Shown: positions 27 to 20,790 of the stretch, one piece after another
How the letters are laid out: every line of letters begins with the position of its first letter
How positions within the stretch are numbered: position 1 is the first letter of the stretch
Source: a virus
Reading direction: 5' to 3' (one strand)
Virus record (IMG/VR): IMGVR_UViG_3300009505_000087
Coordinates: 1-20,790 of that record
DNA length: 20,790 bases
The notes under the pieces: generated by a model
Databases searched by the model: none
Told to the model about the DNA's origin: nothing
The model's input: the letters and a program-made list of their open reading frames with translations, nothing else
Program-made: the position numbers and the translations under genes

Positions 27-434
27 TCAGAGGCCCCTCTCAGAGGCCCGCAAAGGCACCTCTGTCAGCCCCATGGTCCAGATCGCTTCTGCACCCCCCA
101 TACCGAGAACAGCCTTGATGACGTCTGGCGTGGCTTTTGGTCCTGTCTCGGAACTGTCAAGCGTCCAGATGGACACAAGTGCCTGCGCCTGTGCAGCCTT
201 GGTCATGTCGATGACTTCCTCGGTATCCCACTCAGGGCGCACCACAGGGCTTTCAGCAGCGACGATGAACCCGTCAGACACAGGAAGACTTGCCGTGGCG
301 TAGAGGTTGCCATGTGCGTCCTGCCATGAGGGGTTGCGGTAGGTCAGGCCATCAGCTTTGGAATACCCCAAGACCATTGCAAGGTGGTTGGCGTTGTCGA
401 TGTGCGCTTGCGGCACTGCGATTGTCAGTCTCAT
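27..434 (-). CDS. Hypothetical phage protein, last gene of the post-terL cassette
   Basis: A 135-residue soluble protein of unknown function. It starts at ATG 434, which overlaps the TGA of the LamG-like gene (ATGA), so the two are probably translationally coupled. There is no strong Shine-Dalgarno, only GGGG upstream. The N-terminal half (MRLTIAVPQAHIDNANHLAM, then a YRNPSWQDAHGNLYATAS stretch) looks like small proteins found next to tail or adsorption genes in alphaproteobacterial phages; that is a recollection, not a search. No membrane segment, signal peptide or catalytic motif is visible. The last ~11 codons lie in DNA identical to the 3' end of terL but are read in another frame, so this C-terminus may be a product of the duplication that made the repeat. 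Confidence 0.75.
   Translation of the reverse strand: MRLTIAVPQAHIDNANHLAMVLGYSKADGLTYRNPSWQDAHGNLYATASLPVSDGFIVAAESPVVRPEWDTEEVIDMTKAAQAQALVSIWTLDSSETGPKATPDVIKAVLGMGGAEAIWTMGLTEVPLRASERGL
37..60. repeat. 24-bp direct repeat, copy 1 (end of 135-residue gene)
   Basis: Bases 37-60 are identical to 1549-1572. Here the repeat covers the end of the 135-residue gene; in the other copy it covers the last six codons and stop of terL. The two genes read it in different frames, so shared protein ancestry of the C-termini does not explain the identity. Next to it, 32-48 can fold into a 7-bp stem with a 3-base loop. Confidence 0.85.
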
Positions 435-1264
435 AGTGTAACCCCTGTTTTTCCTGCCACATACGTTTCTGACTGTGCAATCTCGTTGGCGTCAAGGTTA
501 GCACCAAAGCGGGTAACTAGGCTGTAGATGTTGCCGGAAAAGTTGGCAGAACCAGACGGATTTGAACCGACCCACATTTGCGAGTTACCAAACGATGTCA
601 GGCCACTGTCCGTTGCAGAACCTACGGCTGTCACTGAGCCGTTCTCACGTAGAGAGATTTCATCCGCGCCGACTGCGGAAGCATCATAAAGAACAGAAAA
701 CGCGGAAGTGTAAGGTGCAACAGCTGTAACTCTTGCGGTTTGGTTACTTCCTGACCCAAAAACCTGCGCCCTGTAAGCGTCAGTGCTTCCGTCTCCCGTT
801 GCAAACTTGAGAAGCGCACCAGTAGAAGAAAAAGGTGCATCGCCGTATTGGTAAACAGGACTGTTGTTTGACTTAGGCGTCGCAACGTTTACCCCTGCAA
901 AGAATTGAGCGGACAATCCTGCGCCCGGTGTGATCGTAGGCGTAACCATGTAGTCGTCTACACCGTCGAACTCCAACCAGTGCAGCGTTCCATCAGTCTG
1001 GTACTCAGGCCGTGCAGCAGCAGTGGCTTGCGTGGCGTGTAGGTCATTACCCGACTTATCCAGCATCAGCGCAACAGTCTGCCCTGCCGTGGTCACAGGG
1101 GTTGTGCCTGCTGTGTCTTGGAACAGGGTCGTCAGGTCGGACGGGTCATACCATACGCCGGGTGCGTCGTTGGCAAAAAGGGCGGAAATAGTAGGTATCG
1201 CCACGCTGGATCGAAGCCTTGTGGTCAACAAGGCACCTAGATGGATTTGATTAGTCAGTTGCAT
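431..1264 (-). CDS. LamG/concanavalin-like jelly-roll protein, putative adsorption or tail-tip protein
   Basis: A 277-residue protein counted from ATG 1264. The longer reading frame begins with TTG at 1306, but AAGGG lies about 10 bases before 1264. Near the N-terminus is a GVWYDPSDL segment, followed by DKSGNDLHATQAT, RPEY and LEFDGVDDYM. This order is typical of LamG-like/concanavalin A-like jelly-roll domains in phage tail and surface proteins, with the FDGVDDYM strand as the clearest hallmark. The remainder is S/T/G-rich and beta-like, ending in NFSGNIYSLVTRF, as in other LamG ends. The likely role is glycan or surface binding on the virion. It overlaps the upstream 76-residue gene by 14 bases and is coupled to the 135-residue gene downstream. 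No catalytic residues are apparent. The fold call is good; the virion location is inference. Confidence 0.8.
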   Translation of the reverse strand: MQLTNQIHLGALLTTRLRSSVAIPTISALFANDAPGVWYDPSDLTTLFQDTAGTTPVTTAGQTVALMLDKSGNDLHATQATAAARPEYQTDGTLHWLEFDGVDDYMVTPTITPGAGLSAQFFAGVNVATPKSNNSPVYQYGDAPFSSTGALLKFATGDGSTDAYRAQVFGSGSNQTARVTAVAPYTSAFSVLYDASAVGADEISLRENGSVTAVGSATDSGLTSFGNSQMWVGSNPSGSANFSGNIYSLVTRFGANLDANEIAQSETYVAGKTGVTL

Positions 1265-1481
1265 AGACGAATGTCCCTTCCCCTCTAACCCACACTTCAC
1301 CGCCAAGTGATGTTAGTTCTGGAATGGTTTGCGGGATGTCAGATGAGAACGCAAAACCAAGGTCTGAGGGAGACGGGGCGTTCCCCACGAATACCTCCGC
1401 TTTTACCCGCGCCTGACCAATAAATACTGCCTTTGCTACTGCTACCTGCTGGTAGGTTGTCGTCAATAAGATGCTGTTCAT
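1251..1481 (-). CDS. Small putative tail/adsorption-associated protein
   Basis: A 76-residue protein starting at ATG 1481. Its Shine-Dalgarno is weak and its leader is A/C-rich, with five AAC units. The C-terminal part (PELTSLGGEVWVRGEGTFVY) has the G-G-x-V-W-V-R-G-x-G-T pattern of small beta-rich proteins that accompany phage tail or head-fibre genes. No membrane segment or catalytic motif is seen. It is the first gene of the three-gene cassette after terL and overlaps the LamG-like gene by 14 bases, so it may be a partner, chaperone or connector for that protein. The function is not established. Confidence 0.7.
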   Translation of the reverse strand: MNSILLTTTYQQVAVAKAVFIGQARVKAEVFVGNAPSPSDLGFAFSSDIPQTIPELTSLGGEVWVRGEGTFVYATD

Positions 1482-3390: not shown

Positions 3391-3675
3391 TTAGTTGTAG
3401 TATTGCTCCTCGCCATCGTCTTTCAACGTCGGCAGGTCTTTCAGGGCATCCTGCAGTGGATCGAAACGATCAGAGCTTGCGTCCGCCGTGATGTCGTTGT
3501 CCTTGAGGAACTTGATTGCAGCCGCGATGTAGCTGGCTGGTGCAGGCATGGTGCCTGTCTCGTTACCTTCCTTGTCGTAGGTGGTAACGCCGTTCTCGAT
3601 GGTATCAGCAAGCTGCTTCGCTGTGAGCATGTGCAGCCTGTCCATCATATCAATGGTGGCTTTGCTTTGTGCCAT
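3391..3675 (-). CDS. terS: Terminase small subunit (DNA maturase A, T7 gp18-like)
   Basis: A 94-residue protein (T7 gp18 is 89) at the gene 18 position, directly before terL. It recognises phage DNA and regulates the large subunit. The LHMLTAKQLADTIENG helix, a PAPASYIAAAIKFLKDNDIT helix and an acidic tail (LKDDGEEQYYN) fit the small terminases of T7-like phages, where an N-terminal DNA-binding/oligomerisation part precedes an acidic end. ATG 3675 overlaps the TAA of the upstream gene (TAATG), so translation is probably coupled. The family call rests on length, helix pattern and synteny. Confidence 0.85.
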   Translation of the reverse strand: MAQSKATIDMMDRLHMLTAKQLADTIENGVTTYDKEGNETGTMPAPASYIAAAIKFLKDNDITADASSDRFDPLQDALKDLPTLKDDGEEQYYN

Positions 3676-3944
3676 TAGAGTAATCCCATTTTGTGAGCGA
3701 TTGCGGTGATGGCGGTGGGGACGATCACGCCGAGTGCTGCTGTGAACACTCCGACGCGGATTTTGAAGGCTTCGAGTTTACCAATACGAGCGTTGTGCTT
3801 CTCAATACTGTCATTCACGTTTGCTTCGACATCGTCGAGACGACGGTTTGTGGACCGCCGCTCTTCAACGAGGTACTTTAGATCGCCCCGCATCTCGCCA
3901 AGCATTAACCATAGCTGGTCGGGTTTGGGGCTTTCAGGGGTCAT
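3675..3944 (-). CDS. Coiled-coil protein with C-terminal membrane anchor, putative holin/lysis accessory (XhlA-like layout)
   Basis: An 89-residue protein. Residues 10-60 form a charged helix (LWLMLGEMRGDLKYLVEERR and on) likely to be a coiled coil. Residues 63-83 form a hydrophobic membrane segment (VGVFTAALGVIVPTAITAIA). Charged coiled coil followed by a single C-terminal anchor is the layout of XhlA-type haemolysin/holin accessory proteins. It starts at ATG 3944 within a TAATG overlap with the 65-residue gene. T7 has its holin gene 17.5 just before gene 18, so position supports a lysis role. It could instead be a structural or unknown membrane protein. Confidence 0.7.
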   Translation of the reverse strand: MTPESPKPDQLWLMLGEMRGDLKYLVEERRSTNRRLDDVEANVNDSIEKHNARIGKLEAFKIRVGVFTAALGVIVPTAITAIAHKMGLL

Positions 3945-4141
3945 TAGATTTTGAAATCCCAGTTAAAGGTGGTTTCAGCAGCCTCAGGGTCTTCGAGGAA
4001 GAGAACCCGCTTACGGAGTGCTACGACCTCGTCTTGTGTCCGCTTGATGCGCTTCACCGTGCTTTGTTGTGTGAAGACAGTCGTAATCAGAAAGAAGGCG
4101 ACGAAGAACAGCGCCACGATGATGATATTTTCGATGGTCAT
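3944..4141 (-). CDS. Small single-TM coiled-coil protein, putative holin or inner-membrane spanin-like protein
   Basis: A 65-residue protein. An N-terminal hydrophobic helix (about residues 5-24, IIIVALFFVAFFLITTVF) is followed by a charged helix (25-52) and a short tail ending FNWDFKI. The layout fits a class II/III holin or a small Rz-like inner-membrane spanin; no lipobox partner is evident here. The true start is ATG 4141: it has AAGGA 8 bases upstream and overlaps the desaturase TGA (ATGA). The open frame runs further upstream but has no better start. Its topology is the mirror of the next protein, whose anchor is at the C-terminus. Confidence 0.7.
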   Translation of the reverse strand: MTIENIIIVALFFVAFFLITTVFTQQSTVKRIKRTQDEVVALRKRVLFLEDPEAAETTFNWDFKI

Positions 4142-4890
4142 TTGATGGTTCCTTGTTTTGCGATCAGGGCAATGAGTGCCCCTGAAATGTCGATCTCCCA
4201 CCACTTGTGCTTGAACACAGCGCGGGAGGGTTTTGCGTGATGGTTGTTGTGCCAAGCTTCGCCCCAAGTGATTAGGGCAAGCCACCAGACGTTCCTGCTG
4301 TTCTCGTTTGTCTCGTAGGTGCGATACCCGTGAGTGTGTGTGAACCAGTTCAGGATAGAGGACATGAGTGACGTAGCTGCCTGTGGGATAAGACCAAAGA
4401 AGGCAACGGCTTGAACTCCACCGAGGATGAAGAGGACGAGATAGAAGACCGCGAAGACAGTTGTAGCGCGTTTATGGAGGAACCAGACGTAGCGGTCCTT
4501 CATCAGCCTGCGAACTCTGCGGTAATTCACTCGGTCGTCGTAGTGCGGCACCAAGAAACCCTTGATACCGTTTAGGGGTGAGTGTGGGTCATGCTCTGTG
4601 TCACTGTGTCTGTGGTGTTCTTTGTGAACTGCCACCCAAGCAAGCCCGCTCCCGGTCCCCGCTAAGGTTCCCAGAAGGATGAATAGACGTTCCATCCAGC
4701 GATACCGAAACTTGAAGCTGTTATGGGACAGGTAGCGGTGAAATGTTGTGGTTATACCCAGACAGGAGAATGCGAAGTACATCCCGAAGGCCGCGCACCA
4801 CCAGAGCAAGTCAGCCCCGGTGATGGCGTAATAGATGCCTAAACATGTACCAATCACTGTCACTGCGATGATGTGGTTTGTCTTAAACAT
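4138..4890 (-). CDS. Membrane fatty acid desaturase (delta-9 acyl desaturase family), putative auxiliary metabolic gene
   Basis: A 250-residue integral membrane di-iron desaturase that would introduce a cis double bond into acyl chains (acyl-CoA or acyl-lipid) using O2 and host electrons. All three histidine boxes are present: HRYLSH at 51-56, HKEHH at 89-93 and HNNHH at 214-218 within WGEAWHNNHHA. It also has NWFTHTHGYR (181-190) and RNVWW (199-203), both typical of bacterial DesC/delta-9 enzymes. Hydrophobic segments lie near 7-24, 28-50, 68-88 and 143-168. It is shorter than many homologues but lacks nothing essential, and it has no fused cytochrome b5 or ferredoxin domain. ATG 4890 overlaps the upstream gene by 8 bases with GGAG about 10 bases before it, and its TGA overlaps the next ATG. 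It is thus embedded in the late operon. Regiospecificity is inferred. Confidence 0.93.
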   Translation of the reverse strand: MFKTNHIIAVTVIGTCLGIYYAITGADLLWWCAAFGMYFAFSCLGITTTFHRYLSHNSFKFRYRWMERLFILLGTLAGTGSGLAWVAVHKEHHRHSDTEHDPHSPLNGIKGFLVPHYDDRVNYRRVRRLMKDRYVWFLHKRATTVFAVFYLVLFILGGVQAVAFFGLIPQAATSLMSSILNWFTHTHGYRTYETNENSRNVWWLALITWGEAWHNNHHAKPSRAVFKHKWWEIDISGALIALIAKQGTIK

Positions 4891-7220: not shown

Positions 7221-7239
7221 TTAGGTCTAGTATGTGGGT
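7221..7239 (-). promoter_or_regulatory. Putative phage promoter before the tail fibre gene (phi17 position)
   Basis: Minus-strand ACCCACATACTAGACCTAA matches 18643-18661 at 18 of 19 positions. The only two copies I found sit before the fibre and capsid genes, the same places as T7 class III promoters phi17 and phi10. The ACTA core recalls the CACTA of T7-type promoters. It overlaps the stop codon of the gp16-like gene by one base, and the fibre start lies ~42 bases downstream. The polymerase gene is outside the window. Confidence 0.65.
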
Positions 7240-14403: not shown

Positions 14404-16769
14404 TACACTTTCCTTGATCTGGTGCTGTAGGTTGCTTCCCATTCGGCAGCCGTGAAGCTGGCAGGGAGTGGGCTATCGCATACGATCTTAATCAATGCGT
14501 CCACGTTGCGGGCCATGATGGGTACACGGACACGACCTGTAGGAAGGTTGAACCTCCCAATGGTGCCGCTCTCCACGCCCAACTGCCGACCTGTGAAGGT
14601 CTTCGTGTAGGTGTCCCTTCCGCGTGGCTTAGAGGTAATCCTGAAGAAACCTGCACGGGAAAAGTCGATGGACAGATAACGGAGTTGAAGGCGTCCTGCG
14701 CTGTCGGCTGTAACACCACCACCCGGCTCTTGTGATCGAAGATAGAACGTCGAGAACTGGTAGGTTGCGACATACTTCGTACCAATCAACAGCTTTACAC
14801 CCGTCCAATCACCTCGAAGTCGAAGCTGGTTTGGGGCGATCTGTTCGTGGTTTACGATGATGCCTTCGTCATGCGTGAGGTCTCCCCCACGCACCATCAC
14901 AATGGTCTCTTCGGTTGTACCAAAAGGAAGCGTGATGTTGGTGTAATCGCCATCAATGACGGACGTGATAAGGGCCTCAGTAATCCCCCGGTCAATCCGA
15001 TATTGAAGAACGGAGTCTTCGTCGGTGCTTCCGCTCTCAAGGTTCACTCGTTCAAGAAACGTCTGCCCATAACGAGAGACGACCATGTAAAGGCTGCTCT
15101 CGATGAAGGATACGCTGAGGATATTATCGTCCGCGCCAAACTCCCACTTAGACCACGCCGACTGCAGCTTACCTTCGTTGTTGAAGAAGAAACGGTAAAT
15201 CCACATGGCGTTCGTTTGCCCAGAAGCTAGGCAGACCAAAGTGTCCTCCGAAGAGGAAGCCGCCAGTTGTGTGAGAGAGCGTGGCAGGTAGCGAGGTGCG
15301 TGAGACGTGACGTCTAAGGCATCGTTCTGTTCATTGCCCTCTTGTACGAAGTATTCACGTAAACCAGAGAAGCTCCCACGGGGAACCGGGAAGTAGACGA
15401 ACTGGCCCACCCCTACTGGCCTGACGTTGGTCAAGCTTTCAAAGGCTGTTGCCTGTGCCACTGAAACCGTCTGAGGTGTCAGAGTTCCGCCACCCTCTAG
15501 GACAAACTGAGATTGGTCCGAGAAGAGCAATAGGGTTCTGTTAAAGGGCACCGCGAAGTTCAAGATGGAGACCCGCTCAGAAGTCACCGCCACGTCGATT
15601 GGGTCAGTGTCCCGAAGCGATGTCGCTGTTGAGCGGTAGAAGTCGAAGTATTCCCCGTCCTGCGAAGTGATCACGTTCTCGTCTGCTACAAAACCAAGGC
15701 GGTTCTGAAAGAAGAAAATGTCCCTGATCTTGCGTGTCGTGAAAGATGGATGCGGTACCTTGTCCAAGTCACCAACCTCGCGGTCGGCCCATGTTGCTGC
15801 GTCAAAGGTGAATGTACCATCAGCGTTGCGTACCAGCGTGTGCGGCATAGTGGATGCGTCCATACGGAACGTCTCACCACCCTTTAAGTGTTCTTTCCAG
15901 ACACCGACGCCGCCTATACCTTCCGCCTCAAAGCGCACGAAGTAGTTATCGAAGCTAGAGGATTGGTCTCCTACAACTTCCACATCGAAACCTTCAACGC
16001 CCTCTTCGGGCAGGTCACTGAAACGCTGAACCTGAGATTGGATAGCAACGATGTTCACGCCGCCTGTTCCATCCTCGGCTCGGACAGAGAACTCAAGGGT
16101 GTTTATCCGCTTGATAGACAGGACGTCACCTTTCTGGGTCATAACGAAACCCTCAGGTGCCGCACTCCAATAGCTATTCCAACTCGCCAGCAAACGAGAC
16201 GCAATATAGTTGGTGTCAATCTGCGAGGTATGTGCTGCGTCTGAACCATTTGGTGTTGTGAAGGTTGCACACTGAATATCATCTACAAAGAGGCGATAAG
16301 TCTTACCGTAGTTGCCCCCTCGAATGTAGATCAGGGCCTCGTTAATGCGGTCGGGGGTTTTCGCCGGGTCAACCGCTACAGTCTTGTTCCTGTTCAAGAT
16401 GAAGGTGTAATCAGCGACGGTCACTGCGCGGTAATCGTCAGCGTTGAAGGAGCTTAGGTAGCCCCAACCGTTTGGTGCTGTCACTGTGCGTTCGATGCCT
16501 GTGTTGGCTTCAAAGACACGCAACTGTCCACTACGAATAGCCACGATGTACCGTTCAGTCACGTCACGATTGATGGTGTGAATAAAGGCGTCAGCCCAAT
16601 CAGCATTGTCAACCATAGCGAGGTGACGTGAGGGAGGACGAACTGTCAATCCATCCGCAACGGAAGACAGGAAGTTAACTTGATCTTCGGCCTGTGAAGC
16701 AAGTCGCAAAGTGGGCGGCTGCTGCGAGATACCGTTGATCAGGTTTGGAATGGTTGATGTCATCAACAT
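14403..16769 (-). CDS. Tail tubular protein B (T7 gp12-like nozzle)
   Basis: A 788-residue protein (T7 gp12 is 794) forming the hexameric nozzle below the adaptor. ATG 16769 is chosen because AGGTG lies 7 bases before it; ATG 16763 is an in-frame alternative with poorer spacing. The N-terminus (MTSTIPNLINGISQQPPTLR, then EDQVNFLSSVADGLTVRPP) is the typical nozzle start, shared with T7-like phages. HRDV-type strands, KIRDIFFFQNRLGF, and RPVGVGQFVYFPVPRGSFSG further on are conserved nozzle segments. It follows the adaptor gene by ten bases and overlaps the gp13-like start. Confidence 0.95.
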   Translation of the reverse strand: MLMTSTIPNLINGISQQPPTLRLASQAEDQVNFLSSVADGLTVRPPSRHLAMVDNADWADAFIHTINRDVTERYIVAIRSGQLRVFEANTGIERTVTAPNGWGYLSSFNADDYRAVTVADYTFILNRNKTVAVDPAKTPDRINEALIYIRGGNYGKTYRLFVDDIQCATFTTPNGSDAAHTSQIDTNYIASRLLASWNSYWSAAPEGFVMTQKGDVLSIKRINTLEFSVRAEDGTGGVNIVAIQSQVQRFSDLPEEGVEGFDVEVVGDQSSSFDNYFVRFEAEGIGGVGVWKEHLKGGETFRMDASTMPHTLVRNADGTFTFDAATWADREVGDLDKVPHPSFTTRKIRDIFFFQNRLGFVADENVITSQDGEYFDFYRSTATSLRDTDPIDVAVTSERVSILNFAVPFNRTLLLFSDQSQFVLEGGGTLTPQTVSVAQATAFESLTNVRPVGVGQFVYFPVPRGSFSGLREYFVQEGNEQNDALDVTSHAPRYLPRSLTQLAASSSEDTLVCLASGQTNAMWIYRFFFNNEGKLQSAWSKWEFGADDNILSVSFIESSLYMVVSRYGQTFLERVNLESGSTDEDSVLQYRIDRGITEALITSVIDGDYTNITLPFGTTEETIVMVRGGDLTHDEGIIVNHEQIAPNQLRLRGDWTGVKLLIGTKYVATYQFSTFYLRSQEPGGGVTADSAGRLQLRYLSIDFSRAGFFRITSKPRGRDTYTKTFTGRQLGVESGTIGRFNLPTGRVRVPIMARNVDALIKIVCDSPLPASFTAAEWEATYSTRSRKV

Positions 16770-16779
16770 TGTTTTTCAC

Positions 16780-17355
16780 CTATCGAGTGTTGTGGATGCT
16801 GCGGACGCTGTTGCTATCGAAGAGGTAGTTCTTCTTCTTGACGCGGGTGTTGGCCCTGCGGTGTGCCCACATAGCTGTGCGTTCGTCTTCTGCTGTGATT
16901 GCATTCAGCATATCGGAGGCAACTGCGCGTCGTTGGAAGCGGCGGGCTGCGCGAATGGCGATGTACTGTCGGGTAACTTCTGGAAGGTCCATGAAGTCGA
17001 GACCCCAGATTACTTGGGCTTCAACCTCGGACTTCCCCGACATGTCATAACTGAATGTGGTGGTGTCATAGATACGGTTCCCGCGCACTGTGAGTGTCCG
17101 GTCGGTAGGGACTACGCTCAAGGCGTTCGGAGGCACCGTCGCTTCGAAAGGCGCAAAGCCTTCGGGAATAATCGGGTAGCGCTCGTCGGTGTTGAAAGTG
17201 TAACCCTCAACGAGAACTTCGCGGGTTACCTCACGAAGGGACGATATGGCTGTAATGGCGTCCACCACACCAACATCTTCGAGGGTGTTGATAGGGGCTT
17301 CGCCTACTATGGCCAACATTGAGTTGACCGCATTGAGTTCTGTAGTGGTTTCCAT
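16780..17355 (-). CDS. Tail tubular protein A (T7 gp11-like adaptor)
   Basis: A 191-residue protein (T7 gp11 is 196) forming the dodecameric adaptor between portal and nozzle. The start is ATG 17355 with GAGGAACC just upstream; the open frame extends to 17442 but crosses the capsid terminator, so that part is untranslated. METTTELNAVNSMLAIVGEA (1-20) and INTLEDVGVVDA are the classic start of the family, and FMDLPEVTRQYIAIRAARRFQRR is its conserved C-terminal helix. It is the first gene after the terminator and needs read-through or another promoter. Confidence 0.95.
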   Translation of the reverse strand: METTTELNAVNSMLAIVGEAPINTLEDVGVVDAITAISSLREVTREVLVEGYTFNTDERYPIIPEGFAPFEATVPPNALSVVPTDRTLTVRGNRIYDTTTFSYDMSGKSEVEAQVIWGLDFMDLPEVTRQYIAIRAARRFQRRAVASDMLNAITAEDERTAMWAHRRANTRVKKKNYLFDSNSVRSIHNTR

Positions 17356-17375
17356 TGGAGGTTCCTCAAAGATCG

Positions 17376-17412
17376 AAAAAAACCCCCACCAAGAAATCAA
17401 TCTCAGTGGGGG
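17376..17412 (-). terminator. Rho-independent terminator after the capsid gene (T-phi position)
   Basis: On the minus strand CCCCCAC (17412-17406) pairs with GTGGGGG (17389-17383) around a 16-base loop that can itself partly pair. Seven T residues follow (17382-17376). It begins ten bases after the capsid stop. T7 has its partial terminator T-phi at the same place; read-through supplies the tail genes. Confidence 0.88.
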
Positions 17413-17422
17413 CTTGGGTAGC

Positions 17423-18382
17423 TTAGAGGCGGGCCAGTTCAACAGCAGCCTCAGGGCGCAGAACGCCGTGGCCTACTGCATAACGAGACACAACCTGTGT
17501 ACCTAAACGACGTGGGTCGTAGTCCATGCGTGTGGACAGGTCCATCAACTGGACGGTACCAATCGCAGACTTGTGCATGATCAGGCCAGCAGTCTTGGAG
17601 AAGTTGCCAACGTAACCATCACGCGAACCACCAGCAACAGACGCCGAAGTGACGTTTGTCTTTGGAAGGTTGTTGGTCTTCACGATTTCGATACCAGCAA
17701 CTTCGAAGACTTTGCCTTTAGCGAAGTCGCCGTTACCTGCAGAGAAGTCACGGTTGATGACTTTGTCCGACTGCACCAGAGTGTAATACTCAGCAGGTGA
17801 CAGGTAAGCGACACGGTCAGCTTCTGGGATGTTCTTCTCGTCCATCAACTGAGCAGCAGCATAAAATGCAGCAGCCAGTTTGTCAGGATTAGCGAAGTCA
17901 GAAGCAACGCCCTCTGTGACGATGGAACCAGCAGGTGTTTCACCTGTGATGTTGCCAACAGCAGTACGGGCAGCGAGAACGCCAACCTGCAGGGCATGCT
18001 TGTCCCAAGTCTGGGCAAGAACACGACCAACTTCTGTTGAGTAGTGACCACGGACGTCGTAGTGGTTCTTGGCTTCGTCGATCTCAGCGATGAACACAGG
18101 AGAGATCAGCAAGTCGTCAATGACGATCACTTTCTCGTTGTGCTTGATTGTGCCGCCGAGGATTTCGTTGCCGGGTGTATGGTAGAAGGCAGATGCGCGG
18201 CCCATTACTGGGAACTGTGCGGACTTGCCGGAAGTGATGGAACGCGACATTACGCGGCCCTTAGTTACGTTCTCGGCTTCGAAGGTCGTCATGACCTCAC
18301 CGGAGAAGACTTTCAGAAAAAGGTCGTCAGTGAGACCAGCACCATTTGCTTGGCCGAGAGCGGATACAACTGCATCAGTCAT
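17423..18382 (-). CDS. Major capsid protein (T7 gp10A-like)
   Basis: A 319-residue HK97-fold capsid protein (T7 gp10A is 345). ATG 18382 is chosen because AAGGA lies 9 bases before it and MTDAVVSALGQANGAGLTDD fits; the upstream extension is leader. Recognisable family segments are DDLFLKVFSGEVMTTFEAEN, RSITSGKSAQFPVMGRASA, the HNEKVIVIDDLLISPVFIAE strand, AYLSPAEYYTLVQSDKVINR and the C-terminal RRLGTQVVSRYAVGHGVLRP. It is preceded by a long leader with a promoter-like element and followed by a strong terminator, so it is probably the most highly expressed gene. I see no slippery site for a gp10B-type extension. Confidence 0.96.
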   Translation of the reverse strand: MTDAVVSALGQANGAGLTDDLFLKVFSGEVMTTFEAENVTKGRVMSRSITSGKSAQFPVMGRASAFYHTPGNEILGGTIKHNEKVIVIDDLLISPVFIAEIDEAKNHYDVRGHYSTEVGRVLAQTWDKHALQVGVLAARTAVGNITGETPAGSIVTEGVASDFANPDKLAAAFYAAAQLMDEKNIPEADRVAYLSPAEYYTLVQSDKVINRDFSAGNGDFAKGKVFEVAGIEIVKTNNLPKTNVTSASVAGGSRDGYVGNFSKTAGLIMHKSAIGTVQLMDLSTRMDYDPRRLGTQVVSRYAVGHGVLRPEAAVELARL

Positions 18383-18642
18383 AGTGTATTTCCTTGTGAG
18401 AGAGTGGGTGACCTCTCCGCACCACTCACAGCGCAGCCCGGAGTTATCCGCCTCAGCGGGCAACGGGGCCTGATCGTAAGTTTGGTGGAGGTTCTGTTGA
18501 CGCCGCCTAAAAAGGTCAGCACGTCATGTCTCAAAAGGAATGCAGTTAGGGTGGGGTGTGGCCTCTCAGCGTCCAAACGTGATTAGCGTCCAGTTCTGAG
18601 AGGCCTTCCATTCACCCCTGAAAGGAACCCCAGACAGATGTC
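18383..18642 (-). promoter_or_regulatory. Long structured leader of the capsid gene
   Basis: About 260 bases of apparently non-coding sequence lie between the promoter-like 19-mer and the capsid ATG. It holds a perfect 10-bp inverted repeat (18560-18569 with 18596-18605, 26-base loop containing two GGACGC copies), a CCGC-CTCA-GCGG hairpin near 18448-18459, a T5 tract near 18511-18515 and the AAGGA site next to the start. I found no credible ORF on either strand; the plus-strand frames are shadows. Confidence 0.5.
18560..18605. repeat. 10-bp inverted repeat in the capsid leader
   Basis: GGCCTCTCAG at 18560-18569 is perfectly complementary to CTGAGAGGCC at 18596-18605. No T-run follows on either strand, so it is not a standard terminator. 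It could be an RNA stem for stability or processing. Confidence 0.7.
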
Positions 18643-18661
18643 TTAGGGCTAGTATGTGGGT
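18643..18661 (-). promoter_or_regulatory. Putative phage promoter before the capsid gene (phi10 position)
   Basis: Minus-strand ACCCACATACTAGCCCTAA, one base different from the copy before the tail fibre gene. It starts ten bases after the stop of the holin-like gene. The capsid ATG is about 260 bases downstream. The pair of sites mirrors T7 phi10 and phi17, and the ACTA core is T7-promoter-like. Start point and polymerase are unknown. Confidence 0.65.
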
Positions 18662-18670
18662 GAATAGAAT

Positions 18671-19129
18671 TTAGTAGAGGGAGCCATCGACAGGCACACC
18701 TCGGTTGCCGTTAGTTCCTGTTCGCTTCTCGTATGTACGCAAAGTGCCAAGACCCAAGATGCCACCAAGGACAGTCAGAAGGGTCGTCATATCGAGGTCT
18801 GGAAGGGTCGTGATAGGGAAGTCCACATTGAAGTAAGTGGTCAACGCCCAGATAGCGAAAACAAGAACAGGTTGGAGTACAAAGTTGTAGGCGAAGGCAA
18901 AACCACACACCCAGCCAATGAAGGGCCGCCAGCCAGACACGAAGATGTTCTCGTGCTTGGCTTCGACAGCGTTCACTGCAATCTGGGCAAGCTGCCCCTT
19001 CTGCTGTAGTTCGATCAACCGTAGTTTCGCATTGTCGCGTTCTTCATCAGTCGTGAAGAGGTTGTCGATAAGCTCGAAGAGGCCGCCTGCGATGTTGCCT
19101 ACGTCCACGTTCACAAGGTTCTTGGACAT
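18671..19129 (-). CDS. 3-TM holin of the gene-transfer-agent type
   Basis: A 152-residue membrane protein from ATG 19129, with AAAGGA upstream. Residues 1-60 are a soluble helical part (ELIDNLFTTDEERDNAKLRL). The holin core follows: SGWRPFIGWVC (65-75) leading into a membrane helix (~70-95), a second hydrophobic stretch, LPDLD (109-113) and a third helix LLTVLGGILGLGTLRTYEK (117-135). The SxWRPxIGW and GxLGLGxLRTYEK signatures are those of the GTA_holin_3TM family. The expected role is to permeabilise the inner membrane for lysis. Its place between scaffold and capsid is unlike T7, whose holin lies before gene 18. It could have been adapted to another membrane role. Confidence 0.85.
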   Translation of the reverse strand: MSKNLVNVDVGNIAGGLFELIDNLFTTDEERDNAKLRLIELQQKGQLAQIAVNAVEAKHENIFVSGWRPFIGWVCGFAFAYNFVLQPVLVFAIWALTTYFNVDFPITTLPDLDMTTLLTVLGGILGLGTLRTYEKRTGTNGNRGVPVDGSLY

Positions 19130-19140
19130 AGGGTTTCCTT

Positions 19141-19932
19141 TTACATGACGTTGGAGCGGGACAACTTCGCCATGACGTCGGCACGGTAAGATGCGTCACG
19201 CGAATAGCGAGGGTCTGACATCGCCTTGGTGACTTCCGCAGTGGACCGGAATACTTCACCAGTTGCTGCACCGCCACGCTTGCCAGCGACGAGGTTCGGG
19301 GTAGCGCCACCTTCAGCACGGAAGCGGGCATTCAGGCCTTGAAGGGCCATCTGAATTTGCACTTCGGAACCGCTGTCGATGGTTGCGTTGAATGCGTTGA
19401 CTTCATCAGGCGACATATTCTCAGCGCCCCAACCCAGAAGGTTATTGAACGCTTCTTCGCCGCCAACGGTTTGGTGCATGTTTGAAACCAGACGTTCGCC
19501 AAGAGCCTGTTGACCTGCAACGTAGCTCTGAACCATGTCCTTCGAGATGCCCTGCTTCGCAAGAGCTTCATAGTCGGCTGCATCTAGATCGCCTTTGTCC
19601 ACGATCTTCTGGCCAAGTTCGTCCATGTTCAGGCCAGCACCTTCGACAGCCTTATTGGCAGCCTCTTGGACTTCCTTAGTTCCACCCTCAGGTGTCGCCT
19701 CAGGTTTCGCCTCAGGTGTCTCTTTGCCACCACCAAGCTTCTTCTCAGCTTCTGCGTAGGCTTTGGCCATGTCTTCTGGCGTTGCAAACTTCTCAGGCAA
19801 CCAAGCAGGTCGCTCAGAGGTTGCCTCAGGGGTTGCCTTAGGTGTTTCTTTACCTTCGGCCTTTGCCACCATTTCGTCGATATGTGCGGCGGTGTCTGAC
19901 CCTTGCTCAGGGGTGATGTTCACTTCGGTCAT
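19141..19932 (-). CDS. Capsid assembly scaffolding protein (T7 gp9-like)
   Basis: A 263-residue acidic protein (T7 gp9 is 307) from ATG 19932, with AAGGA about 6 bases upstream. It guides prohead assembly and leaves before packaging. Residues 41-66, RPAWLPEKFATPEDMAKAYA and on to EKKL, are the standard family motif. It is flanked on both sides by Pro/Glu/Thr-rich low-complexity repeats (KETPKATPEATSE and KETPEAKPEATPE). The C-terminal part (FRSTAEVTKAMSDPRYSRDA) matches the capsid-binding end of the family. It is placed between portal and capsid as in T7. Confidence 0.93.
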   Translation of the reverse strand: MTEVNITPEQGSDTAAHIDEMVAKAEGKETPKATPEATSERPAWLPEKFATPEDMAKAYAEAEKKLGGGKETPEAKPEATPEGGTKEVQEAANKAVEGAGLNMDELGQKIVDKGDLDAADYEALAKQGISKDMVQSYVAGQQALGERLVSNMHQTVGGEEAFNNLLGWGAENMSPDEVNAFNATIDSGSEVQIQMALQGLNARFRAEGGATPNLVAGKRGGAATGEVFRSTAEVTKAMSDPRYSRDASYRADVMAKLSRSNVM

Positions 19933-19934
19933 GA

Positions 19935-20099
19935 TTAGTCCTTAATCCACATTGTGACGCCAAAACGGACGACCTTACGGCCCCGGTCTTCGGCTGCTTC
20001 TGGGGCCACTTTCGCAGCCTTCTTTGTCTTCGGCGCTGGTGCTACCTCAGGGACAGTGGCGTTCGCCTCAGTCGCTGTTTCATTTTCCTTGGCTGCCAT
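19935..20099 (-). CDS. Small K/A/E-rich protein between portal and scaffold
   Basis: A 54-residue protein from ATG 20099, with AAGGA 9 bases upstream. The open frame extends to a TTG at 20123, which is less likely. The gene overlaps the portal 3' end by 20 bases in another frame. Residues 1-45 are low-complexity Ala/Glu/Lys/Thr/Pro (APAPKTKKAAKVAPEAAEDR), then a hydrophobic/basic end (RKVVRFGVTMWIKD). It stops three bases before the scaffold start. It may be a minor capsid or assembly protein; the function is unknown. Its tightly coupled position and RBS support it as a real gene. Confidence 0.65.
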   Translation of the reverse strand: MAAKENETATEANATVPEVAPAPKTKKAAKVAPEAAEDRGRKVVRFGVTMWIKD

Positions 20100-20790
20100 T
20101 GGCTTCCATTCCTTTCTGGGCAAGTCCGCCCATTTGGTTGATCATGTTAGGGAGACCCTGTTGCATCATCATCTGTTGTTGACGCTGTTGGGCTTCTTCT
20201 TCCTTCTGCTCTGGTGTCTTGAGCAGGCCTGTTGGGTCGATGCCGAGGGCCGCAGCACGGCGCTTGACGTAGTCACCCACGTTCGTTTCTGCCGCCAAAG
20301 CCTCAGGGCCGTAGAGATCGCGCAAGCCAGCGACCATGCGGTCAAGCTTGTTGAGATCACTCTGTCGGGATAAGGCGTCGATGCCAGTTGTGACGGTGGG
20401 TTGAACCAATTCCTTGGGCAGCTTCGGCAGACGCTTCTGCTTCACCAACCGCTCAATGGTAATCTTGACCAAAGGAAGCTGGAACTCTTGCGAAAGCTGC
20501 ACGTAAACAGCACCAATAGTCGCCTCAAGGTCAGCCGCCATGTAGCGGATTTCCTCTGCGGTCACCCGTTCACCACTTCGTTGGATTGAAGAGTTCATCA
20601 GGAAGTGCTGCTCGATGCGGCGTGTGAGATCGTCGGCAAGGTTCTTCGCCACCTGTAGATCGGCGTACTTGTCGATACGAAGGAAGCTCACGTCGTCAGC
20701 AACACCGGATACGAATTGGAAGTTCTCGGCATTGGAAAGGTCTTCTTCATCAGTGACACCGTTAGGGTTCACCAATGCGACAACCTTCGC
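20080..20790 (-). CDS. Portal (head-tail connector) protein, T7 gp8-like, C-terminal part only
   Basis: The reading frame is open to the right window edge, so only the last 236 residues are seen (T7 gp8 is 536). It forms the dodecameric vertex ring through which DNA passes. SGERVTAEEIRYMAADLEAT, GAVYVQLSQEFQLPLV, LPKLPKELVQPTVTTGIDAL and LGIDPTGLLKTPEQKEEEAQ closely follow the gp8 C-terminal half (gp8 has ERVTAEEIRYVASELEDTLG). The end is Gln/Met-rich (RQQQMMMQQGLPNMINQMGG). The final 20 bases overlap the small downstream gene. Confidence 0.96.
   Translation of the reverse strand, partial: AKVVALVNPNGVTDEEDLSNAENFQFVSGVADDVSFLRIDKYADLQVAKNLADDLTRRIEQHFLMNSSIQRSGERVTAEEIRYMAADLEATIGAVYVQLSQEFQLPLVKITIERLVKQKRLPKLPKELVQPTVTTGIDALSRQSDLNKLDRMVAGLRDLYGPEALAAETNVGDYVKRRAAALGIDPTGLLKTPEQKEEEAQQRQQQMMMQQGLPNMINQMGGLAQKGMEANGSQGK

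Follow-up and report, generated by a model that had tools for sequence, protein, structure and literature searches.

Why does a T7-like phage carry a holin gene between its scaffold and capsid genes, when the holin gene of T7 adjoins the terminase, and does this gene, whose protein family is named after gene transfer agents (GTAs), owe its place to exchange with such elements? The window analysed here comprised the whole of an IMG/VR record (20,790 bases) and, as such, probably represented roughly half of the genome of such a phage. On its minus strand the genes followed the order portal, 62-aa ORF, scaffold, holin, capsid, tail tube genes, internal virion proteins, tail fibre, and terminase, some of them named from position and the rest from Pfam or PHROG. 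This series is a T7-type late region. The original prediction had placed a GTA-type holin within the head cluster, in a position unlike that in T7, and family matches of the gene and of its two neighbours bore out both the placement and the departure from T7. The genes concerned were as follows.

18671 to 19129, minus strand: PF11351-family holin of 152 aa, starting with ATG (Pfam, PHROG, dN/dS)
19141 to 19932, minus strand: T7-type capsid assembly (scaffold) protein, PF05396, forming the upstream border of the interval (Pfam/PHROG)
17423 to 18388, minus strand: major capsid protein, PF21703, forming the downstream border (Pfam/PHROG)

The capsid ORF opened with a TTG at 18463; its probable start was the ATG at 18388, and it ended at 17423. 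At the other end of the series, after the large terminase gene, a 291-aa ORF (431-1306, minus strand) had no Pfam match at E 0.01 and resembled, by eye only, a sugar-binding tail-type protein.

The 152-aa ORF matched PF11351 (GTA_holin_3TM) with an E value of 1.6e-19 and 71 bits, against a cut-off of 24.8, and PHROG 3427 ('holin') with 111 bits, and both matches were near full-length. Judged by its sequence, it is a clear member of PF11351. Compared with the copy in the sibling contig L003 (86% amino acid identity), dN was 0.10 and dS 0.69 (NG86), and the differences at codon positions 1/2/3 numbered 22/9/51. The low dN relative to dS and the excess at the third position indicated that the gene is real and under purifying selection. 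Hydropathy located hydrophobic stretches at residues 62-106 and 109-132, and the structure model (mean pLDDT 71.6) contained two long helices, at 62-100 and 114-137, with no clear third. The protein is predicted to have a helical N-terminal part and, after it, a hydrophobic hairpin or a triple segment. When this model was compared with BFVD, no match reached an E value of 0.001; the four best-ranked entries were named 'Holin of 3TMs', yet their E values were 0.7-1.7, and the comparison therefore contributed nothing. No match to the T7 gp17.5 holin (PF10746) was found in the window. The gene followed the scaffold gene in siblings L002-L004 (86%) and L012 (75%), lay between scaffold and capsid genes in L003, L011, and L012, and preceded the capsid gene, as a partial copy, in L005.

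Holin activity has been demonstrated for TeaA of phage ICP1, which its authors place in PF11351 via remote homology (PMC7182436). ICP1 ORF137 (HQ641347), taken as TeaA from the number Gp137 of another isolate, matched neither PF11351 at E 0.01 nor the PF11351 profile built here. TeaA was dropped as a homology bridge to the window's holin, since the comparisons showed no similarity.

Two motifs of the ORF, SGWRPFIGW and LGLGTLRTYEK, had been taken as signatures of alphaproteobacterial GTA holins, and the unusual position had been read as a hint of gene exchange with GTA or prophage elements. Both motifs were present exactly, but their reading as GTA signatures was not supported. The pattern GWRP[FA]IGW was found in 3/3 window-type rows, 0/12 other slot rows (holins from the same scaffold-capsid interval), and 0/3 GTA-cluster-linked rows, and in 10 of the 26 alphaproteobacterial rows that had been retrieved with the family profile, independently of the motif. 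It also occurred in relatives from many bacterial phyla and in viral contigs recovered by motif-pattern scans; these scans supplied most of the relatives and are unable to gauge the frequency of the motif, because the motif itself was the search pattern. The neighbours of the window's holin gene were T7-type head, tail, and packaging genes, linkage to GTA structural genes was not encountered, and a Pfam scan of 19 ORFs of the window matched no GTA gene.

Acquisition of the gene from an alphaproteobacterial GTA, or from a GTA-bearing prophage, would accord with the Pfam name of the family and with the presence of PF11351 genes close to GTA_TIM at two loci, and weakly at a third.

G209, C2:841408-841746: PF11351 gene at most 3 kb from GTA_TIM
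G211, C1:1932548-1932886: PF11351 gene at most 3 kb from GTA_TIM
G201, L292 16913-17801: weak PF11351 match at most 3 kb from GTA_TIM, followed by phage lysozyme

The GTA-type clusters in G209, G211, and G201 seem to carry their own lysis genes. For Caulobacter GTAs, one study reports no canonical holin-endolysin genes, unlike in R. capsulatus (PMC13236601). In a sample of 192 alphaproteobacterial genomes, PF11351 was present in 9 of the 22 genomes with GTA_TIM versus 41 of the 170 without, a difference that leaned towards a GTA source and was not significant (Fisher p 0.12). A bacterial family with GTA_TIM in 33 of 40 genomes had PF11351 in 6 of the 40; none of these PF11351 genes was seen near GTA_TIM, though in three genomes the two were on different contigs. 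Against a GTA source, GTA_TIM was found in just 3 of 20 genomes carrying near relatives of the window's holin, which were hand-picked from the motif-pattern scan and of which 19 were titled alphaproteobacterial.

The comparison with GTA-linked holins that the original prediction had called for was then made by phylogeny. PF11351 trees were built from 89 members and, for a careful tree, from 87, over 125-127 columns. Their rows included 22 genome and 16 viral sequences, each set taken at random from 79 that cleared the coverage filter. L001, L263, and short hits were not included, and the AU tests also omitted L292 (G201, a long weak row). In the careful tree the window's holin grouped with L003 and L011 (100/95), apart from G209 and G211. 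Next to this clade stood the phages ParMal1, ParKuw1, and MedPE-SWcel-C56 and a 19-kb MAG contig (SH-aLRT 97 in the first tree); in the careful tree, the node uniting the window's clade and the Paracoccus phages reached 94/53 and was not starred. The G209 and G211 holins lay on another branch, together with the slot holins L030, L052, and L080 and with L297-L299, which are PF11351 genes from the GTA_TIM-rich family. A clade of the window's group with the two strong GTA-linked holins was rejected by the AU test (p 2.2e-4; p 1.8e-5 without L095), and GTA-linked and phage copies therefore appear as cousins in a large phage holin family. We consider it most improbable that the gene came from a GTA, an origin supported neither by GTA_TIM co-occurrence nor by the trees. 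The GTA reading of the window's holin rests on the Pfam family name.

The scaffold-capsid interval, hereafter the slot, was surveyed in the best 80 capsid-gene relatives in IMG/VR, of which 74 carried both genes on the contig and could be scored, 6 loci without a scaffold match being set aside. Because the 80 loci represented only 38 capsid clusters at 90% identity, the locus counts that follow overstate independence. Among these best 80 relatives, a PF11351-type gene lay between scaffold and capsid in 21 of 74 when scored by a profile constructed for this work from 12 seeds and not by Pfam's own, which was run on three slot genes and on 50 whole records. Other content filled the slot in 29 of 74, and the gap was shorter than 220 bases in 24 of 74. 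The 29 comprised 23 slots with at least one hydrophobic ORF, a count set by a hydropathy threshold and containing ORFs that overlap the scaffold end in L031 and L032, and 6 with neither a hydrophobic nor a lipoprotein ORF. A spanin-like lipoprotein ORF with a lipobox was found in 14 of those 23 hydrophobic-ORF slots (the lipobox was flagged in 15 rows, and L051 was removed by eye), and such lipoprotein-like ORFs typically overlapped their neighbour, like Rz1. Pfam and PHROG searches of sampled slot genes gave PF11351 in L014, L030, and L083, a holin of another family (PF23987) in L008, and an Rz-like spanin (PHROG 1275) in L016 and, weakly, in L009. Named phages added further variants. An amidase is annotated in the slot of Lo5R7ANS; Limnohabitans phage YIMV22061 has a PF11351-like gene directly before the capsid gene, in a record that annotates no scaffold; and hypothetical genes are annotated in the slots of LUZ100, BB8, RHEph01, and RHEph21, with a tRNA-Asn as well in three of these four. 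In a broad group of T7-like phages, the scaffold-capsid interval probably serves as a lysis-gene slot with varied, interchangeable lysis genes.

The slot holins did not share a single history. Placing all 15 of them in one clade was rejected by the AU test (p 9.7e-5 with L095 counted as a slot row though its record annotates no scaffold; p 0.0013 without it), and it follows that PF11351 genes entered the slot repeatedly or arrived there by replacement. Whether the gene was ancestral in this position across all relatives had been named as a check on the original prediction, and the result was divided: the near relatives shared the position, whereas the wider relatives showed turnover. The slot is not used by all T7-like phages, since JG068 keeps its lysis genes at the right end of the genome (PMC3765740). 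A scaffold-capsid lysis slot as a topic was not found in the literature searched, which consisted of titles and abstract openings, with most subscription papers outside its scope.

PF11351 genes also occurred away from the slot. They lay beside the small terminase, with a short or nearly empty slot, in CRP-361, CRP-125 (where the slot holds a short hypothetical gene), and the IMG/VR records L050, L067, and L075, and after the large terminase in ParKuw1 and in ParMal1, where the scaffold-capsid gap is 45 bases. In the remaining short-slot records no PF11351 gene was seen. More than one PF11351 match was found in 0 of the 50 records searched with the Pfam profile, many of which are fragments.

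The original prediction had also drawn attention to two further membrane proteins at the T7 holin position of the window, and both were recovered beside the terminase.

3391 to 3675, minus strand: small terminase (PF11123, Pfam), marking the T7 holin position
3675 to 3944, minus strand: TMa, 89 aa, located at the T7 holin position, with a charged stretch and a single hydrophobic segment at its C-terminal end
3944 to 4147, minus strand: TMb, 67 aa, with one N-terminal hydrophobic segment, in a variable island

TMb, a fatty-acid desaturase, and two further ORFs had no tblastn match in siblings L309 or L310 and were therefore regarded as a variable island. The desaturase gene (PF00487, 72 bits; 4138-4890, minus strand) lies in this island between the tail fibre and terminase genes. 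TMa was kept in L309 and L310 (91% and 85%).

The recurrence of TMa-like proteins and of PF10746 matches beside the terminase makes a two-part holin, or a holin with a regulator, conceivable. In the former, TMa at the terminase and the PF11351 protein of the slot would cooperate in the manner of XhlA and XhlB of PBSX, and the window would have split genes that are adjacent elsewhere. Short proteins with one C-terminal hydrophobic segment were indeed found directly before a PF11351 holin and the small terminase in L305 and L306, and upstream of the terminase genes in six relatives (L309, L312, L313, L316, L317, and L318), as TMa is in the window, and the conservation of TMa in the siblings points the same way. 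The TMa-like protein from L318 scored against XhlA (PF10779) with E 0.012, which is below the cut-off, whereas the window's TMa matched no Pfam family at E up to 1, XhlA included, and in L091 the PF11351 gene adjoins the terminase but no TMa-like partner is listed. We regard such a joint action as a tentative possibility. A weak, sub-cut-off match to the T7-type holin (PF10746) occurred in seven other records and lay beside the small terminase in those inspected (L014, L016, and L019); two of the seven, G261 (L014) and G266 (L019), also have a PF11351 gene in the slot. Given TMa in the window and the PF10746 matches in L014 and L019, the slot protein could be an additional holin or have a regulatory role. 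In another reading, TMa would be the working holin, at the place where T7 has its own, and the slot protein an antiholin or timing regulator. We think this unlikely; PF11351 itself stands beside the terminase in L050, CRP-361, and CRP-125, and its occurrence at that place fits a main-holin role.

A capsid promoter downstream of the holin gene had been assumed, and the sequence between the two genes was examined for it.

18643 to 18661, minus strand: repeated 19-base promoter-like motif, ACCCACATACTAGCCCTAA, between the holin stop and the capsid start (exact repeat)
7221 to 7239, minus strand: the motif repeated exactly, ahead of the tail fibre gene
L303, 217-235 and 3609-3627, minus strand: copies of the 19-base motif, conserved in siblings
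18389 to 18670, minus strand: holin-capsid intergenic stretch (RNA folding versus shuffles, sibling conservation)

The motif ACCCACATACTAGNCCTAA was exact at both window sites, the first just past the holin stop, against a chance expectation of 0.02 matches. It was also present at the capsid site in siblings L002-L005 and upstream of the tail fibre gene in L310. In L303, which is the whole contig of L004, a copy with one mismatch lay upstream of the portal gene and another, with three, close to the beginning of the RNA polymerase gene. We read the motif as a probable promoter for the phage-encoded RNA polymerase, the gene for which is present in L303. A scan of 17300-20200 found sigma-70 sites no commoner than in shuffles, and terminators likewise. 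The assumed promoter was thus supported as a motif and not by sigma-70 sites. In folding, the RNA of the intergenic stretch surpassed all 200 shuffled versions (z -5.3), and it contained a 10-bp perfect stem; parts of the stretch were conserved in L003, L011, and L012, and it had no tRNA and no Rfam match.

No endolysin was matched by Pfam in the 19 ORFs scanned of this partial genome. The sibling contig L303, whose holin is 86% identical, encodes an Amidase_2 endolysin and a T7-type RNA polymerase, and its amidase gene lies about 9 kb upstream of the holin gene, between the RNA polymerase gene and the head genes. Gene 3.5 of T7, an amidase gene, is placed likewise, and the T7-type amidase is taken to need a holin for access to the wall. 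Spanins were sought by a lipobox scan of the window and of L303, L309, and L310; the single match lay on the other strand of L310 and was not trusted. L303 also carries a phage integrase gene (16250-17212, minus strand; PF00589, 108 bits), and the window's genus may consequently be temperate.

We consider it likely that the slot protein is the PF11351 holin of a T7-like (Autographiviridae-type) phage, that it frees a T7-type amidase, and that its gene occupies an interchangeable lysis-gene slot. Late in infection the PF11351 protein would gather in the inner membrane and open it, and the cytoplasmic T7-type amidase would then reach the cell wall. Membrane opening and its timing are inferred, as is the role of the slot protein, in preference to the protein next to the terminase, as the main holin. 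Lying before the capsid promoter, the gene would be co-transcribed with the head genes, and this placement suggests that the holin is made together with portal and scaffold, below the level of capsid. It is conceivable, if somewhat doubtful, that the slot serves more generally as an exchange site for unrelated holins, spanin cassettes, and separate PF11351 lineages while a partner stays by the terminase, with two-part lysis driven from two late transcripts, one of them head-coupled.

Together, our results remove a misleading GTA label and explain the position of the gene better by turnover at a shared lysis slot. A known holin family is found in a place unlike that in T7 yet common to many relatives. 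Should the slot have a bearing on timing, these phages would provide natural experiments in which the holin gene changes place with respect to the capsid promoter, and the relation between transcription order and lysis time would become testable in them. The name of PF11351 implies GTA release, whereas the window's copy sits in a T7-like phage. Its nearest named relatives, the PF11351 holins of the Paracoccus phages ParMal1 and ParKuw1 (Autographiviridae; 53-56% identity), lie after the endolysin and large terminase genes, while the window's lies between scaffold and capsid. The gp44 proteins of the Roseobacter phages CRP-361 and CRP-125 (Autographiviridae), annotated as hypothetical, are of the PF11351 type like the window's holin, but their genes adjoin DNA maturase A, which is the T7 holin position. 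The slot of phage Pasto (MT708545) is annotated with endolysin, holin, i-spanin, and o-spanin, and that of ProddE (MZ666938) with endolysin and holin. As in the window, lysis genes occupy the slot in both; these two phages combine annotated two-segment holins with an endolysin there, whereas the slot of the window contains a holin alone.
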